A DNA stretch of 52,076 bases from positions 1-52,076 of the forward strand of contig JAIBFA010000102.1 in the NCBI GenBank assembly GCA_019459325.1. Direction: 5' to 3'. Positions 1,829-17,539 of this stretch are shown here, one piece after another (within the stretch, counting starts at the first letter, position 1; every line of letters begins with the position of its first letter). Source of the DNA: Thiobacillus sp. (GTDB taxonomy: Bacteria > Pseudomonadota > Gammaproteobacteria > Burkholderiales > Thiobacillaceae). Under the pieces are notes generated by a model, which saw only the letters and a program-made list of their open reading frames with translations, had not been told where the DNA came from and made no database searches. A program made the position numbers and the translations under genes.

Positions 1829-2683
1829 TTACAGCTGGATTCCCAGCCTTTGCAGCAGGCCCTGCAGCTCGTCCGCGCTCGCAAATTGTAGGGTCAGCTT
1901 GCCGCTGCCCTTGCTGCTGGTTTGCACGTGGGCCGTCATGCCCAAGGCATCCGACAGCGCCTCTTCCAGCCGCAGGATATCGCGCGACACCGCTTGCTTG
2001 GCCGGCGTGGCGGTTGTGTGATCCTTCAGCCGCGCCACGCGGCGCTCGACTTCGCGCACCGACAGGCCGCGGGTTTCGATTTCGTGCGCCAGTTCGCGCT
2101 GTGCCCCCGCATGCAGGGGCAGCAGCGCCCGCGCATGGCCCATTTCGATGAGACCGGCAGTCAGCATGTCCTGCACCGGGCGCGACAGGTTGAGCAGACG
2201 CAGCAGGTTCGACACCGCCGCGCGCGACTTGCCGACCGCCTGGGCCACCGCGTCGTGGGTCATGCCGAATTCCTGGATCAGACGCTGCAGGCCATGTGCC
2301 TCGTCGATCGCATTGAGATCTTCGCGCTGGATGTTTTCGATGAGCGCCATCGCTGCCACCGCGTCGTCGGCGACTTCGCGAAGCAGCACGGGGATTTCGG
2401 TGAGGCCTGCCAGTTGCGCCGCGCGCCAACGCCGCTCGCCGGCGATGATTTCGTAACCGCCGGCGATCTCGCGCGCCAGGATCGGCTGCATCAGCCCCTG
2501 CGCGCGGATCGAATCGGCCAGCTCCTGCAGCGATTCGCTGTCCATCTGGGTGCGCGGCTGGTATTTGCCGGGCGCCAGATGTTTCACATTCATCATGCGC
2601 AGGTCGCCCTGCGGCGGGGCGGCATTGTCTTCGCCGCCCAAGAGCGCGTCGAGTCCGCGCCCCAATCCCTTAAGCTTGGCCAT
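1829..2683 (-). CDS. parB: Chromosome partitioning protein ParB
   Basis: ParB binds parS sites, spreads along DNA as a CTP-dependent clamp and stimulates ParA. The 284-residue protein has the N-terminal GLGRGLDALLG motif, the CTP-binding GERRWRA motif (82-88), the ENIQRE motif (116-121), a helix-turn-helix around residues 140-170 and a C-terminal dimerisation region. The start is MAKLKGLGRG, preceded by GGGAG; the reading frame extends further upstream but without family similarity. The first 14 bases overlap the end of parA, so translation is probably coupled. Three parS-like sites lie in the same window. Confidence 0.96.
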   Translation of the reverse strand: MAKLKGLGRGLDALLGGEDNAAPPQGDLRMMNVKHLAPGKYQPRTQMDSESLQELADSIRAQGLMQPILAREIAGGYEIIAGERRWRAAQLAGLTEIPVLLREVADDAVAAMALIENIQREDLNAIDEAHGLQRLIQEFGMTHDAVAQAVGKSRAAVSNLLRLLNLSRPVQDMLTAGLIEMGHARALLPLHAGAQRELAHEIETRGLSVREVERRVARLKDHTTATPAKQAVSRDILRLEEALSDALGMTAHVQTSSKGSGKLTLQFASADELQGLLQRLGIQL

Positions 2684-3467
2684 CTGTTTTCTCCCTGGCT
2701 GTGAGGCCGGAACGCTTGAGCATTTCCTCGGCCAGTTCCATATAGGCTTTTGCCCCGCGGCACTGACGGTCGTAGGCCAGCACCGGCAGACCATGGCTGG
2801 GCGCCTCCGCCAGCCGCACGTTGCGCGGAATCACGGTGTCGTACACCTTGTCGCCGAAATGCTGCTTGATCTGCTCCGACACCTGCTGCGCCAGCGTGCT
2901 GCGCGGATCGAACATCACGCGCAGCAAGCCTTCGATACGGATATCCGGATTCAGCCGCTGCTTCACCTTCTTGATGGTGGCGACCAGATCGGTCAGCCCC
3001 TCCAGCGCGTAGTACTCGCACTGCATCGGGATCAGTACCGACTCCGCCGCCGCGAACGCGTTGACGGTCAGCAGATTCAGCGTCGGCGGGCAGTCCATCA
3101 GGATGAAGTCGTAATCGTCGGCCACCTGCGCCAGCGCCACCTTCAGGCGCAGGTCGCGCTGCTCCAGGTTGACCAGATCGATTTCCGCGCCCGCGAGTTC
3201 GCGGTTGGCCGGGATGACATCGAAATGGCCCGGGCCGGAGCGCATCCGCGCGTCACGCAGCGTCACCTGATTGAGCAGGATCTGGTACACGGTCGGCAGC
3301 GCGGTGCGCTTTTCGATGCCCGCGCCCATGGTCGCGTTGCCCTGCGGATCGAGGTCGGCCAGCAGCACGCGCTGACCGAGTTCGGCCAAGCTCGCGGCCA
3401 GATTCACCGCCGTCGTCGTCTTGCCGACGCCGCCTTTCTGGTTGGCGATCGCCACAATTTTTGTCAT
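2670..3467 (-). CDS. parA: Chromosome partitioning ATPase ParA (Soj type)
   Basis: A 265-residue deviant-Walker ATPase that binds nonspecific DNA as an ATP dimer and is driven by ParB to position origins. Visible motifs are the deviant Walker A KGGVGKTT with signature Lys11 and catalytic Lys16, DLDPQGN, and the Walker B region FILMDCPP. There is no N-terminal DNA-binding domain, so it is the short chromosomal Soj class rather than a plasmid type Ia ParA. Its ATG overlaps the rsmG stop (TGATG), and its end overlaps parB, giving a tight rsmG-parA-parB cluster. Confidence 0.96.
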   Translation of the reverse strand: MTKIVAIANQKGGVGKTTTAVNLAASLAELGQRVLLADLDPQGNATMGAGIEKRTALPTVYQILLNQVTLRDARMRSGPGHFDVIPANRELAGAEIDLVNLEQRDLRLKVALAQVADDYDFILMDCPPTLNLLTVNAFAAAESVLIPMQCEYYALEGLTDLVATIKKVKQRLNPDIRIEGLLRVMFDPRSTLAQQVSEQIKQHFGDKVYDTVIPRNVRLAEAPSHGLPVLAYDRQCRGAKAYMELAEEMLKRSGLTAREKTDGQA

Positions 3468-4090
3468 CAAGCAGACTCCAGGACTATCAAATGGCGGCTC
3501 GCTTCCAGCCCCGGCACATGCAGTGCGTGGTCAGCGCTCACTTTCACGCCAGCCGGCAGCAGGGCGATCTCTTCATTCGGATACAAGCCCTTCATCGCCA
3601 GCCAGAGTCCGCCCGGCTTGAGCAGATGGCGGGTCAGCGTGACGAATTCCCTGAGGTCGGAAAACGCGCGCGAGGTGACGATATCGAATCCGGTTTCCGG
3701 ACGGAAATCCTCCACGCGCCCAGTGACCACCTGCAGGTTGGCCAGCCCCAGCTCGGCCTTGGCCTGCAGCAGAAAAGCGGTTTTCTTGGCGATGCTGTCG
3801 ATCAGCGTCACCTGCAATTCCGGCCGCGCAATCGCCAGCGGAATCCCAGGCAGGCCGCCGCCGCTGCCGACATCGAGCACCGCCTCACCCTGAAAAAAAG
3901 GCACGGCCGCCAGCGAGTCCAGCAAATGATGGCTGACCATGCGTTCGGTGTCGCGCACCGCGGTCAGGTTGTACACGCGGTTCCATTTGTCGAGCAGCGC
4001 CAGATAGGCCATGAGCTTCGCCTCGGCACCCTCGGGCAATGCCAGTCCCAGGGCGGCGACACCCGCCGCAAGCTGTTGCTCGACGTTCAT
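3467..4090 (-). CDS. rsmG: 16S rRNA (guanine-527-N7) methyltransferase RsmG
   Basis: RsmG uses S-adenosylmethionine to methylate G527 of 16S rRNA. The 207-residue protein has the class I methyltransferase loop [14 protein letters not shown] (71-84), the acidic LIDS strand end, and the SRAF motif seen in this family. Length matches E. coli RsmG (207). The start overlaps the end of mnmG (ATGA), and its stop overlaps the parA start, so four genes from mnmG to parB are translationally chained. The older name is gidB. Confidence 0.96.
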
Positions 4091-6016: not shown

Positions 6017-6032
6017 GGTTTCACGTGAAACA
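6017..6032. promoter_or_regulatory. parS-like site 1, upstream of mnmG
   Basis: The 16 bases GGTTTCACGTGAAACA differ at one position from the canonical bacterial parS TGTTTCACGTGAAACA. The inner 14 bases are a perfect palindrome. It lies in the short uup-mnmG gap, about 16.7 kb from the candidate oriC and 3.3 kb from parB. It is presumably a ParB loading site. Confidence 0.88.
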
Positions 6033-8008: not shown

Positions 8009-8719
8009 TTATCCGTGATTCAGCGCCGCGTGGACGGCCCGGGCAATATTTAATGCGCCCGGGGTATCGCTGTGCAGGCAGATCGTGTCGGCGCGGACGC
8101 GAACTGCGCCGCCGCCCAGCGTTGCGACTGCCCGGCCCTCGGCCAGCACGCGGGCCTGGGCGGCGGCGGTCGCGGGGTCGACGATCAGCGCGCCCGCGGT
8201 TTCACGTGAAACAAGCCGGCCGCTGGGCTGGTAGCGGCGGTCGGCAAATGCCTCGTTCAGCACCGCAAGTCCCGCGGCCTGCCCGGCCGCAATCAGCTGC
8301 GAACCGGCCAGGCCGACCAGCGCCAGCGCCGGATCGACCGCCACCACCGCTCGCGCGATCGCCCGCGCCACACCCGCATCACGCGCCGCGACGTTATAAA
8401 GGGCGCCGTGCGGCTTAACATGTGCCAGTCGCAGCCCCAGCCGTGCCGCCTGCTCGGCCAGCGCCTCGGTCTGCTGCGTCACCCAGGCCGCAATCTCATC
8501 CCCGGACGCCGCCAGCGCCCGCCGCCCGAACTGGCTGCGATCGGGATAGCTCGGGTGTGCGCCGGCCGCCACGCCATGTTCGGCGGCCAGCCGCAGCGAT
8601 GCCGTCATACTGGCGGCATCGCCGGTGTGGCCACCGCAGGCTATCGACACCCGTGCCAGATAGGGCATCAGGCTAGTGTCGTCACAGCCTTCGCCGATGT
8701 CGGCATTCAGTTCGATCAT
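8009..8719 (-). CDS. pxpA: 5-oxoprolinase subunit A (LamB/YcsF family)
   Basis: PxpA, with PxpB and PxpC, forms the ATP-dependent prokaryotic 5-oxoprolinase that opens pyroglutamate to glutamate. The 236-residue protein begins with the family signature [14 protein letters not shown] and contains SIACGGHTGD, HPSYPDR and KPHGALYN, all typical of LamB/YcsF. The first four bases overlap the end of pxpC (ATGA). The codons for LVSRETAG are written so that they contain a parS-like site, so this stretch is under two constraints. Confidence 0.94.
   Translation of the reverse strand: MIELNADIGEGCDDTSLMPYLARVSIACGGHTGDAASMTASLRLAAEHGVAAGAHPSYPDRSQFGRRALAASGDEIAAWVTQQTEALAEQAARLGLRLAHVKPHGALYNVAARDAGVARAIARAVVAVDPALALVGLAGSQLIAAGQAAGLAVLNEAFADRRYQPSGRLVSRETAGALIVDPATAAAQARVLAEGRAVATLGGGAVRVRADTICLHSDTPGALNIARAVHAALNHG
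8198..8213. promoter_or_regulatory. parS-like site 2, inside pxpA
   Basis: GGTTTCACGTGAAACA, identical over all 16 bases to site 1, lies inside the pxpA coding sequence. Intragenic parS sites are well known. A 16-base exact copy 2.2 kb from the first, next to parAB, is unlikely to be chance. Confidence 0.88.
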
Positions 8720-13189: not shown

Positions 13190-13747
13190 ATGACTCTGCG
13201 CCGCCGTCTCGCCATCGGGCTTTTGCTTGTCAGCCTCGGCGCCTGCACGCCCTGGACGCGTGTCGATCCAGGCAGTCGGACTGAATCCCGACGCGACGAT
13301 TACACCCTCGAACTACCGCTCGGCTGGGTCAAGCGCACCACGGACACCAACGGTTTCTTCGTGACCCGCGACGGCCCCGCGCTGAATTACATCGCCGTCA
13401 ACCGTCAACCGCACGACCGCAAGCTGCCGCGCACCAAGCGGGAAACCCGCGCCGACATGCTGCCGCACGAACTGGCCGAACTTGCCATCGCCGAATGGAA
13501 AAGCAGCGAGGCCACCGCCAACCTGGCGGTGCTGTCCAGCACGCCGGTATGGGTCGGCGGCAAGCCCGCCGTGCGCGTGCACATCCGTTACAAGAACGAG
13601 CGCGGGCTGCCCATCGAGCGCGTCATGGTCGGGCTGGTCGACAGCAAAGGCCGTCTATCGATCCAGTACGAAGCCCCGGCGATCGTCTATTTTCAGCGCG
13701 GACTGGCGGATTTCGAGGCGATGGTGGCCAGCGTACGCTTCAGGTAA
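13190..13747 (+). CDS. Predicted lipoprotein of unknown function
   Basis: The 185-residue product has a lipoprotein signal: basic N-terminus MTLRRR, hydrophobic core, and lipobox LGAC with Cys19 as the lipidation site. Residue +2 is Thr, so outer-membrane sorting is likely by the usual rule. The mature domain (DDYTLELPLGWVKRTTD...) resembles small alpha/beta domains used in photosystem-PsbP-like or DUF-type lipoproteins, but I cannot assign one. AAAGGAA precedes the ATG. It is the last gene of the rightward island and faces the RNA helicase gene across a shared terminator. Confidence 0.82.
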   Translation: MTLRRRLAIGLLLVSLGACTPWTRVDPGSRTESRRDDYTLELPLGWVKRTTDTNGFFVTRDGPALNYIAVNRQPHDRKLPRTKRETRADMLPHELAELAIAEWKSSEATANLAVLSSTPVWVGGKPAVRVHIRYKNERGLPIERVMVGLVDSKGRLSIQYEAPAIVYFQRGLADFEAMVASVRFR

Positions 13748-13760
13748 GTGACAACAGCCA

Positions 13761-13794
13761 ATAAAAAAGGGGGGTTTCACGTGAAACCCCCCTT
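13761..13794 (-). terminator. Intrinsic terminator of the RNA helicase gene, built on a parS palindrome
   Basis: Bases 13767-13794 form a 28-bp perfect palindrome. As RNA on the minus strand it folds into a 12-bp stem (AAGGGGGGTTTC with its complement) and an ACGT loop, followed by a six-base U-tract ending near 13761. It begins 26 bases after the helicase stop codon. For the rightward lipoprotein gene the hairpin is the same, but the following U-tract is weak. Confidence 0.85.
13773..13788. promoter_or_regulatory. parS-like site 3, inside the terminator palindrome
   Basis: GGTTTCACGTGAAACC keeps the whole 14-base parS core and differs from the canonical 16-mer only in its outermost bases. 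It lies at the exact centre of the 28-bp terminator palindrome, about 8.9 kb from the candidate oriC. ParB binding here is inferred from the match. Confidence 0.82.
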
Positions 13795-13820: not shown

Positions 13821-15455
13821 TCAGTCCTTGAAGCGACCCCGCACACCGACGCGGTTGCCACCGCCCCGGTTTTCGGGGGCGGCGCTGCGCGGCTGGCCAG
13901 GGCGCGCGCTGTTACCGCGGTCACCGTAGCTGCGGGGCGCGGCCGCCTTGGCTTTCGCCTCACGCTCGCGCTTTTCCCAGTACTCGACGCTGTTGCCATT
14001 GACTTCGGCCCTGGGCGCAGGCGCGGCGGCGGCACCGCGATAGGCTTCGTTGCGCGGCGGGCGGTCGCCCGTCATGCGCGGCACGTCGGACGGGCCGGGG
14101 GCGCGCGCGGCATTCTCAAACCGGTTGCCACGCGGCGCATCGCTGCGAGCGGGACGGTCACCGGCGGGGCGGGCATCGGCGCGATAGCCGCGGTCGCGGT
14201 TATCGCGGCTGTCGCCACGCGGCGGACGGTCGCCGTAGCTGCGCGGGGCCGCATTGCTGCGCGGACGACCCGACGACGACGGGCGGCCTGCGGGCGGACG
14301 GCCCGAAGACGGCTTCTGGGTCGGCTCCAGCCCCGGCAGGGTGTGTACCTCGATGCGGTTGCCGGTGTAGCGTTCGATGTTCTTCACCAGACCGCCTTCG
14401 CGCATGCCGGCAAAGCTCACCGCGATGCCGGTACGGCCGGCACGGCCGGTGCGGCCGATGCGGTGGACGTAGTCCTCGGCCTGACGCGGCAGATCGAAGT
14501 TGATGACATGGCTGATGCCCGCCACGTCGATGCCGCGGGCGGCAACGTCGGTGGCGACCAGCACCTTGGTGCGGCCTTCACGCAGACGCTGCAGGGCGCG
14601 GTTGCGCTGGCCCTGCTGCATGTCTCCGTGCAAGGCGTCGGAAGCAAAGCCGCTCTCGGCCAGCAGATCGGAAATTTCCTCGGTGCTGCGCTTGGTCGAC
14701 GCAAACACGATGGCCTGCGTCATGTCCACGCCGCGCAACAGCGCGTCGAGCAGACGGTTCTTGTGGTCCATGTTGTCGGCAAACAGCAGGCGCTGCTCGA
14801 TCTTGGATTCCAGATGCGGAACCGCTTCGATCTCGATGCGCTGGGCGTCGCGGGTCAGTTCGCGCGCCAAGTTGCCCACCACGCCGTCGAGCGTGGCTGA
14901 GAACAGCAGCGTCTGGCGCTCGGCCGGGCAGCGCGCGGCGATGGCCTTGATGTCATCGACAAAGCCCATGTCCAGCATGCGGTCGGCTTCGTCCAGCACC
15001 AGCACTTCCAGGCGCGAGAAGTCGATCTTGCCGCGCTCCAGGTGGTCGATCAGGCGGCCCGGCGTGGCCACCACGATGTCCACCGGCTGGCTCAAACGCT
15101 TCAGCTGCAGGCCATACGGCGCGCCGCCGACCAGGCAGGCGGTGCGGAAGCGACGCATGTCCTTGCCATAGGTCATGGCGGCTTTTTCGACCTGCAGCGC
15201 GAGTTCGCGCGTCGGGGTCAGCACCAGCACGCGCGGGCCCATGCTCTTGACGGTCGGCTCGGCCAGCATGCGCTGGATCGAGGGCAGCAGAAACGCCGCC
15301 GTCTTGCCGCTGCCGGTATGCGACGACACCAGCAGGTCGCGCCCAGTCAGCGCGGCAGGAATCGCCAGCGTTTGGACCGGGGTGGCGTTTTCGTAGCCTG
15401 CGGACAGGACGGATTTAAGGATGAGGGGATCAAGCCCCAGTTCGGAAAAGCTCAT
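13821..15455 (-). CDS. DEAD-box ATP-dependent RNA helicase, RhlE-like
   Basis: A 544-residue helicase. The start MSFSELGLDPLI matches RhlE-type N-termini and is preceded by AAAGG; the frame extends 13 codons upstream. Visible motifs are the Q motif (ATPVQTLAIP), motif I (SHTGSGKT), PTRELALQ, TPGRLIDH, DEAD (VLDEADRMLDMGF), SAT, and ARGIDVAG with HRIGRTGRAG in the second RecA domain. The C-terminal ~150 residues are a low-complexity Arg/Gly/Pro tail (many RP, RGN, GDR repeats) for RNA binding. Roles in ribosome assembly or RNA decay are likely. Its leader is long and its terminator contains parS. Confidence 0.93.
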   Translation of the reverse strand: MSFSELGLDPLILKSVLSAGYENATPVQTLAIPAALTGRDLLVSSHTGSGKTAAFLLPSIQRMLAEPTVKSMGPRVLVLTPTRELALQVEKAAMTYGKDMRRFRTACLVGGAPYGLQLKRLSQPVDIVVATPGRLIDHLERGKIDFSRLEVLVLDEADRMLDMGFVDDIKAIAARCPAERQTLLFSATLDGVVGNLARELTRDAQRIEIEAVPHLESKIEQRLLFADNMDHKNRLLDALLRGVDMTQAIVFASTKRSTEEISDLLAESGFASDALHGDMQQGQRNRALQRLREGRTKVLVATDVAARGIDVAGISHVINFDLPRQAEDYVHRIGRTGRAGRTGIAVSFAGMREGGLVKNIERYTGNRIEVHTLPGLEPTQKPSSGRPPAGRPSSSGRPRSNAAPRSYGDRPPRGDSRDNRDRGYRADARPAGDRPARSDAPRGNRFENAARAPGPSDVPRMTGDRPPRNEAYRGAAAAPAPRAEVNGNSVEYWEKREREAKAKAAAPRSYGDRGNSARPGQPRSAAPENRGGGNRVGVRGRFKD

Positions 15456-15772
15456 GGCAAACCTTTTTTCAGTGCGCTCAAACGCGCAAAACAAACCTGC
15501 GCCCGGTTCAGAACCAGACAGGTCATAAAATACGAACCGGATATAAGCGGCGTTTGAAAAACGCCCAACGGGTCGCGTCGATCACATCGGCGCCAACCAC
15601 AAGACTTGTCACTGCCGGTTGCGGAAAAACACCGGCGGCACAAAAGAGAGGTCGAAGACGATGGGGCTGTGAGAACAGTCCCGAGGCACGGTGGCAAAAG
15701 CCTAGCCTGCCCACTGCTGTATGCACAACTCAGCGAAGTGTATCAGAAAACACTGATTTTCCCCAATGGTTT
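15456..15772 (-). other. 317-base gap: long structured leader of the RNA helicase gene
   Basis: No convincing gene. Candidate inverted repeats are CCGGTTC/GAACCGG (15503-15509 and 15534-15540) and GCCGGT/ACCGGC (15614-15619 and 15631-15636). If the promoter at 15737-15766 is real, the helicase mRNA has a leader of roughly 270 bases. Short open frames here have no family similarity that I recognise. A long leader is compatible with the autoregulation or cold regulation known for some DEAD-box helicase mRNAs, but that is inference. Confidence 0.4.
15737..15766 (-). promoter_or_regulatory. Candidate promoter of the RNA helicase gene
   Basis: Minus-strand TTGGGG (15761-15766) and TACACT (15737-15742) with an 18-base spacer, beginning just after the ABC exporter stop codon. 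It is a weak -35 and a fair -10. The same stretch contains a small AGTGT/ACACT inverted repeat. Confidence 0.28.
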
Positions 15773-17539
15773 TTAGGGGTGGTGGTAAAGCTTCTGATAC
15801 AACCCGCCGCGGTGGATCAGTTCGTCGTGGTCGCCCTCCTCCACCACGCGGCCGTTTTCGAACACCAGGATACGGTCGGCCTGCCGCACCGCCGACAGGC
15901 GATGGGCAATGATGATCGTGGTGCGCCCTGCGAGGAACCCGCCCAGCGCCTGATGCAGGTGCCGCTCGGTGTCGCTGTCGAGCGCCGAGGTGGCCTCGTC
16001 AAGGATGACGATGCTGGGTTGAGCGACGATCATGCGCGCGATCGCCAGCCGCTGGCGCTGGCCGCCCGACATGCGCACGCCCTGGCGCCCCACCGTGGTG
16101 TCCAGCCCGTGCGGCAGCGCCGTAATGTAGTCCTTGAGCTGAGCGATCTCGAGCGCCTGCCACAGCGTGGCGTCGTCGGCCTCGCGCCCCAGAGTCAGGT
16201 TGGCGCGCACGCTGTCGTTGAACAGCACCGGATGCTGCAGCACCACGCCGACGTGCTCGCGCACGGTCTCCCAGCCGATCTCGGTGACCGGCGCGTCGCC
16301 ATAGACAATCTGCCCGGACTTGACCGGATACAGACCCAGCAGCGCCTGCACCAGGGTCGACTTGCCGCCGCCGGAAGCCCCCACCAGCGCCACCTTCTCG
16401 CCCGGCGCCACCGTCAGGCTGACGTCGTCGAGCACCGTCTCCCCTTCGTCGTAGGCGAAGCTCACATGTTCGAGCGAAATGCCGACGGTGGGCCGGGCGG
16501 CGAAGGGATCGCGCAGCGCCGGATGCTGCGGCTCGCTGGCGAGGCCGAGCAGGGCGTTGATGCGCCCCAGTGCGGCGTTAGCGGCATACCAGGCGTACTG
16601 CATGTTCACCAGTTCCTGCACCGGCGTCATCATGAACCAGAGGTAGCCGAACACCGCCAGCATCTCGCCGATGGTGAGGTCGGAAAACACCACCATCAGC
16701 ATCGCGCCGGCGCGGAAGGCGTCGAAGCCGGCCAGAAAAACGAAGAAGGAAAAACGGCTCATCGCATCCGACTTCCAGGCAAACGCCGCCGCGTGCTGGC
16801 GGATGTCGGCGGCCTTGTCGGTCACGCGCGCCAGGTAATGCTTCTCGCGGTTCATCGCGCGAATCTGGGTCAGCGCATCCAGCGTCTCGGAAAGCGCTTC
16901 CTGGAACACCTCGAAGGCACGGTTCTCGAACTTTTTCAGGTCCTTCACCCGCTTGCCAAGCCGGGTCGAAAACAGGATCACGACGGGGTTCAAGAGCAGG
17001 ATGAACAACGCCAGCTGCCAGTGCATCCAGAACAGCACGCCTGCGACGCCGACCAAGGTCAGCACCGACACCACAAAACCGGAAATCGATGCGCCGAGGA
17101 AGCTGTCGATGGCGTTGAGGTCGGTCACGAAATGCGAGGTCACCCGTCCCGCCCCCACCGTCTCGAACTGCGACAGGGCAATTTTTGAAAGCCGCGACAA
17201 CATGCGGACCCGGATGCGATACACCACGTCCTTCGCCAGCAGCGAGAAGCTGCGCCCCTGCCACACGTTGAGCAGGATAGCCGTCAGCCGCAGGACCACC
17301 GTCAGCAGCAGCGCCGCGCCGATAAACAGCACCGGACCGTGCCAGGCGGCCGGAAACCACGCACCGATGGCCGCGACCATCTTGCCCGGATGATGCAGCA
17401 GCACCTCGTCGACCATCAGCGGCAGCAAGAGCGGGATCGGCACCGAGGCCACCACCGCCAGCACCGCAATGATGTTGGCCAGCAGCAGGCGCCTGCGATG
17501 GCTCTTGAGTTCGTCGGCGATGCCGCGCCAGGTCAGCAT
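15773..17539 (-). CDS. ABC exporter, membrane domain fused to ATPase (MsbA/LmrA type)
   Basis: A 588-residue half-transporter. The N-terminal ~320 residues hold about six membrane helices of an ABC type IV exporter. The ATPase domain follows, with Walker A GASGGGKST, Q-loop, signature MSGGQRQRLAIAR, Walker B SIVILDEATSALDSD and the H-loop AHRLSA. The substrate cannot be read from the sequence; lipid, drug or peptide export are all possible. The ATG ten bases after the mnmE stop gives MLTWRGIADEL. It is probably the last gene of the rpmH-rnpA-yidC-mnmE transcript. Confidence 0.92.
   Translation of the reverse strand: MLTWRGIADELKSHRRRLLLANIIAVLAVVASVPIPLLLPLMVDEVLLHHPGKMVAAIGAWFPAAWHGPVLFIGAALLLTVVLRLTAILLNVWQGRSFSLLAKDVVYRIRVRMLSRLSKIALSQFETVGAGRVTSHFVTDLNAIDSFLGASISGFVVSVLTLVGVAGVLFWMHWQLALFILLLNPVVILFSTRLGKRVKDLKKFENRAFEVFQEALSETLDALTQIRAMNREKHYLARVTDKAADIRQHAAAFAWKSDAMSRFSFFVFLAGFDAFRAGAMLMVVFSDLTIGEMLAVFGYLWFMMTPVQELVNMQYAWYAANAALGRINALLGLASEPQHPALRDPFAARPTVGISLEHVSFAYDEGETVLDDVSLTVAPGEKVALVGASGGGKSTLVQALLGLYPVKSGQIVYGDAPVTEIGWETVREHVGVVLQHPVLFNDSVRANLTLGREADDATLWQALEIAQLKDYITALPHGLDTTVGRQGVRMSGGQRQRLAIARMIVAQPSIVILDEATSALDSDTERHLHQALGGFLAGRTTIIIAHRLSAVRQADRILVFENGRVVEEGDHDELIHRGGLYQKLYHHP

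Follow-up and report, generated by a model that had tools for sequence, protein, structure and literature searches.

One palindrome as a candidate parS site and helicase terminator near the replication origin of Thiobacillus

An oriC-proximal parS site and the intrinsic terminator of an RNA helicase gene most probably share a single palindrome in the Thiobacillus assembly studied here, without important coupling between the two uses. As double-stranded DNA, the palindrome would be a parS loading point for chromosomal ParB; as RNA, it would be the intrinsic terminator of the helicase gene, read by RNA polymerase. Because both elements need a short dyad, the parS core can be the top five pairs and the loop of the hairpin, and the G/C arms and the T-run would complete a terminator around it. 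Judging from the genomes compared below, both functions are probably real on the one palindrome, and each persists without the other. Within Thiobacillus, the terminator would be the steadier part, with a labile parS core that comes and goes while the hairpin usually stays. This reading was built on the anatomy of the sequence, its recurrence in the genus, the separability of the two elements and a tendency for letters of the core to be retained or restored.

Anatomy of the palindrome and its surroundings

The window, that is, the whole stretch of 52,076 nucleotides that was analyzed, is the oriC region of a Thiobacillus assembly (G000; 3.07 Mb, 112 contigs, 88% complete) and carries parB, a parA-like ATPase gene, rsmG, mnmG, dnaA, dnaN and gyrB (Table 1). 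The palindrome sits in a 73-bp gap between the end of a convergent 185-aa ORF and the helicase stop codon, 7.5 kb from dnaA and 11 kb from parB. The true start of parB is probably about 37 codons into the ORF, at MAKLKGLGRG. The cognate ParB has all three domains intact and the GERRWRA motif present, and we infer that ParB binds site D in vivo. The frame that adjoins the helicase on its other side (15554-17188, plus strand, 544 aa) had no Pfam or NCBIfam match and may be spurious.

Table 1. Positions of the features discussed, counted from the first nucleotide of the window.
Feature	Position	Strand	Basis
parB ORF	1829..2794	-	ParB_N, HTH_ParB, ParB_C; contains GERRWRA
parA-like ATPase ORF	2670..3470	-	AAA_31 / CbiA
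parS site B, between mnmG and ABC-ATPase gene, without terminator-like hairpin	6018..6031		exact core
parS site C, inside LamB/YcsF (pxpA-like) gene, without terminator-like hairpin	8199..8212		exact core
Convergent ORF, 185 aa, without Pfam match	13190..13747	+	tblastn: beside helicase in several relatives
T-run (U-tract) after hairpin, six T, two inside palindrome	13763..13768	-	sequence; homologous T-runs in relatives
28-bp perfect palindrome, terminator-like 12-bp stem with ACGU loop	13767..13794	- (helicase strand)	sequence and folding
parS core GTTTCACGTGAAAC (site D)	13774..13787		exact match; one of three in assembly
DEAD-box RNA helicase, gene preceding hairpin	13821..15494	-	Pfam DEAD 7e-49, Helicase_C 2.7e-32
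dnaA	21260..22642	+	TIGR00362 1.7e-172; puts parS cluster in oriC region

The palindrome reads AA-GGGGGG-TTTCACGTGAAA-CCCCCC-TT and is perfect over its 28 bp, with seven more bases on each side of the 14-bp core. Site D matched the parS core at 14 of 14 positions; compared with the 16-bp consensus of chromosomal parS, TGTTNCACGTGAAACA (PMC2346475; this and the other papers are cited from excerpts), the outer T and A were replaced by G and C. Exact cores numbered three in 3.07 Mb, against none for a reversed-pattern control, and the 88%-complete assembly had no exact core beyond the three sites of Table 1. At a given core, seven further complementary pairs are expected by chance with P ~1e-4 per site (64% GC). 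A chance origin of site D is excluded.

On the minus strand, RNA of the palindrome forms the 12-bp stem and ACGU loop. A 51-nt RNA stretch had a minimum free energy (MFE) of -29.5 kcal/mol (z -6.2), none of 200 shuffles folding equally well, and in the MFE structure the U-tract was partly paired to upstream bases. Folding at sites B and C gave z values of only -0.4 to -1.5, no better than that of many shuffles. Since the plus-strand tail beyond the palindrome is only TTCCTATT, the site looks like a one-way, helicase-directed terminator in this genome, and we infer that transcripts end at the hairpin in vivo. The initial annotation had described a perfect palindrome centered on a parS core, a 12-bp hairpin with a U-tract on the helicase strand and a location between two convergent genes, and all three descriptions were confirmed by the coordinates, sequence and folding given here.

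Distribution in the genus

The scan of the genus covered 56 Thiobacillus genomes. Exact parS was present in 51 of them, and in all 27 with at least 90% completeness and at most 5% contamination. There were 140 exact matches, or 139 sites after one duplicate with identical flanks was dropped, and all 139 fell at four positions: A, inside mnmG (23 sites); B, upstream of mnmG (44); C, inside pxpA (48, one of them in G010 probably being another duplicate); and D, at the end of the helicase gene (24). For sites on short contigs of G006, G010, G020, G026 and G028, the position was assigned by hand rules; the five matches of G010 included contig-end duplicates, with site D on contigs C1 and C216 within the same flanks and the pxpA site found twice. 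All four positions could be read in 41 genomes, 29 of which had exactly three exact sites. A palindromic extension of at least 4 bases together with a T-run of at least 4 characterized 21 of the 24 D sites, versus one of the 115 sites at A, B or C (in mnmG of G031). A pattern that required five T in the 10 bases after the core recovered 20 of the 56 genomes, and G054, with four T, supplied the 21st hairpin.

The 3' end of the helicase gene was readable in 48 of the 56 genomes (unreadable in G005, G018, G021, G034, G036, G044, G049 and G050; of these, G018 nevertheless has a row in the table of helicase 3' ends). The exact parS core formed the apex of a T-tailed hairpin in 21 of the 48, for which the unbiased count is 18 of 45, since three of the 21 (G006, G020 and G028) were contig fragments located via the parS string, with their helicase ends confirmed, and genomes without parS could not be rescued by that string. 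A parS-like variant formed the apex in four more (GTTCCACGTGGAAC in G008, G017 and G022; GGTTCACGTGAACC in G051), and 16 had a clean terminator with an apex unrelated to parS. Exact parS stood next to a separate terminator hairpin in three genomes and a one-mismatch parS next to a separate terminator in one (G047); the hairpin was cut by a contig end in one (G040), and no hairpin that qualified was found after the helicase in G011 and G013 (2 of 48). Altogether, a T-tailed hairpin lay directly 3' of the helicase stop in 41 of 48 genomes (21 exact, 4 variant, 16 without parS). Its position was conserved although the neighboring downstream gene varies by species, and T-runs of 4-7 T accompanied all 25 parS or variant hairpins.

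In G014, G045 and G046 (L267, L209 and L211), exact parS follows the helicase stop and a separate terminator hairpin comes after it; in G045 and G046 this parS has short G/C arms and no T-run. The arrangement is possibly a former parS-terminator from which termination moved downstream.

The dual use of one sequence proposed in the initial annotation had good support from the sequence, both in the apex counts and in the concentration of arms and T-runs at D sites. The observation that the annotation would have taken as a refutation was made as well: 16 of 48 genomes have the terminator with an unrelated apex. These parS-free terminators refute an obligate joint conservation of core and arms; they do not refute dual use.

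On a quick tree from ParB, MnmG, the ABC ATPase and the helicase (rooted at the midpoint, with 31 of its 48 inner branches starred), the parS-in-terminator trait changed at least 10 times, whether by gain or loss. A bolder scheme would make terminators near oriC a recurrent nursery for parS, with ParB-CTP loading adding pausing and sharpening termination. If true, a dyad-selected hairpin would convert to parS and back many times, and the terminator would be centromere-gated for as long as parS and hairpin coexist; we regard the scheme as improbable.

Regulatory coupling is, in our estimate, quite unlikely: a ParB-paused polymerase would alter helicase termination, or helicase transcription would evict ParB, so that segregation and expression would be linked. 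The two elements do coincide base for base, repeatedly in the genus; in vitro, 200 nM ParB increased long pausing and backtracking (PMC10681803), and ParB at the intergenic parS3 and parS4 sites of P. aeruginosa represses downstream genes (PMC7022226). However, each element persists alone in related species, and 115 of the 139 exact parS sites of the genus lie elsewhere than the helicase end. In vitro, the processivity of E. coli RNA polymerase was unchanged on its way through condensates of B. subtilis ParB, the authors state that a ParB cluster is no transcriptional roadblock, and a slowing of about 20% with more long pauses was seen only at 200 nM ParB (PMC10681803). ParB binding was also reported to be unperturbed by active transcription (PMC6238139); in the excerpts of these two papers, parS is not placed in a terminator. 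Coupling is made less likely by the separability of the elements and by the passage of polymerase through ParB condensates in vitro, and the earlier suggestions that ParB affects termination here or that transcription clears ParB found no support. Shared use of the one dyad, which needs no coupling, would be the most economical reading.

The gap is a natural experiment on the origin of new centromere sites: within one genus, it contains only a terminator in some genomes, a terminator built on parS in others, and in others again parS with a distinct terminator next to it. The parS core is part of the terminator in T. denitrificans RG (L164), whose two exact sites are B and D, and is missing from that of T. 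thioparus DSM 505 (L144), which has exact parS at A, B and C and a plain terminator at D; this pair makes coupling between ParB loading and termination testable.

Constraint on the core and the arms

Outer arms varied among the 21 parS hairpins without loss of pairing: G004 was changed at pair 7 (GGGAGG/CCTCCC) and G033 at pair 9 (GAGGGG/CCCCTC), pair 10 being the junction of stem and T-run. In the 16 parS-free hairpins, the apex varied with pairing kept, and pairs 2, 3 and 4 took four, three and two Watson-Crick types, respectively. Mismatches of the apex to parS were bimodal among the 42 rows with a 14-base apex (of 46 compared): 0 in 21, 2 in four and at least 5 in 17, with none at 1, 3 or 4.

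We also compared apexes in ordered pairs of genomes according to their distance on the tree. Beyond a distance of 0.12, the apex was the same in 398 of 903 pairs whose first member had exact parS, versus 0 of 877 pairs whose first member did not; ordered pairs on a tree depend on one another, and the former count would also grow if parS had been regained repeatedly. The corresponding counts were 12 of 27 versus 2 of 34 at distances of 0.06-0.12, 10 of 10 versus 8 of 16 below 0.06, and 22 of 37 versus 10 of 50 over all distances up to 0.12. Invariance inside the exact-parS class is circular, as the class is defined by the core, a circularity that the bimodality and the pair comparison partly escape. 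The parS letters appear to be what is kept or returned to, as a tendency.

These data bear on the view that the element is a terminator only, with a parS-like apex that arose by chance or structural favor and goes unused by ParB. Such a view would accommodate the 16 of 48 terminators without parS, and segregation might need no more than sites B and C, but we find it very hard to sustain. Fourteen exact bases by chance are negligible, as the empty control indicates, the identical core recurs in 21 genomes, and three of the four variants are the same GTTCCACGTGGAAC, one half of which, GTTCCAC, is a binding sequence for ParB from P. aeruginosa and other species (PMC7022226). The parS-free apexes, on the other hand, differed in 877 of 877 distant ordered pairs, and exact parS was found outside a T-tailed hairpin in three genomes.

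Least credible of all is a parS site only, with G/C arms and a T-run that are either accidental or part of an extended ParB recognition sequence, and with transcription ending elsewhere: ParB sites may have flank preferences, and a generic terminator scan left site D off its list, but the arms and T-run mark D sites and almost no others (21 of 24 versus 1 of 115), a T-tailed hairpin occupies the same place in the 16 genomes without parS, and site D folds far better than sites B and C. The miss by the scan probably reflects A-T and G-T pairing outside the stem, which would consume the T-run in scoring, and it warns that simple terminator predictors may overlook parS-terminators.

Occurrence outside the genus and relation to known systems

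Among 61 non-Thiobacillus genomes of the family, the core followed by a T-run occurred in one, without a palindromic arm, and no parS-terminator hairpin was found in this rest of the family. A helicase match was obtained in 37 of 42 genomes from other genera of the family (best matches, 49-65% identity, for which orthology is likely), and none of 30 loci had parS within 140 bases after the helicase stop, the best having 4 mismatches. Several helicase 3' ends of these genera carry ordinary terminator-like hairpins.

In wider samples, the pattern was found in 3 of 395 non-Thiobacillus genomes of the order, none with a palindromic arm; in 6 of 274 of the class, none with an arm of at least 4; and in 16 of 298 other genomes of the phylum, of which 15 had no arm at the matched site. 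The sixteenth, G704, had a 4-bp arm and a T-run between pepQ-like and UPF0029 genes on the same strand, which may be chance. These counts are lower bounds, because each pattern restricted the base that follows the core, to G or C in the order and phylum samples and to A or T in the class sample. A second site of G776 (L302:5372-5385) was an accidental find: a parS core flanked by 5-bp arms and accompanied by a T-run (z -3.9) lies between convergent genes, amidohydrolase-like and methyladenine glycosylase, in a genome of another family of the same class, and is probably an independent parS-terminator. The parS-terminator arrangement is rare in the genomes sampled, by a partial scan with patterns that were not exhaustive, and may have arisen more than once.

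The site resembles chromosomal parS of ParABS systems in its 14-base core, its location near dnaA, the parA-like and parB genes nearby and the clustering of parS sites. It is unlike them in that G/C arms prolong the palindrome into a T-tailed hairpin, as they do at only one of the 115 other sites. Likewise, it shares with intrinsic (Rho-independent) terminators a GC-rich stem, a tetraloop, a T-run, a position after a stop codon and a setting between convergent genes, whereas in 21 of 48 genomes a fixed sequence for recognition by a protein takes the place of freely varying bases in its apex and loop.

From the excerpts of the literature, the nearest precedent is the DNA uptake sequence (DUS) of Neisseria, of which inverted pairs function as terminators (PMC2397512). 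There, too, a sequence under selection for a different role also acts as a terminator stem; however, each of the two arms is a DUS copy and such pairs are frequent (PMC2397512), whereas in Thiobacillus the apex is one palindromic parS, and the site occurs once per genome. The components are ordinary, and their combination was not found described in the excerpts: the literature matches listed held no description of parS within a terminator, which is not proof of absence, and a term search in excerpts of P. aeruginosa and review papers on ParB and parS returned no chromosomal terminator at parS.

Further observations on parS sites of the genus

Site C and its homologues keep parS within the pxpA-like coding sequence in 47 genomes. 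As this parS sits inside the coding sequence of LamB/YcsF, site C is under two codes.

Site A lies in mnmG (e.g., L252:4768), about 1.46 kb from site B; 23 of the 46 genomes readable there have it, and the window lacks it. Of 19 genomes with exact D, 4 also had exact A, versus 16 of the 24 genomes that lacked exact D (p 0.005 by Fisher's test, kinship ignored), and with variants counted as D the figures were 8 of 24 versus 12 of 19 (p 0.07). We do not claim A and D as alternative third sites: the association did not hold with kinship taken into account, where independent pairs gave a median p of 1, in a comparison of 7 supported pairs with almost no power.

A one-mismatch sequence, GTTCCACGTGAAAC, replaced the exact core at site B of G007, G035, G045 and G046 and at site C of G045. 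Its presence at parS positions suggests that C is tolerated at position 4.
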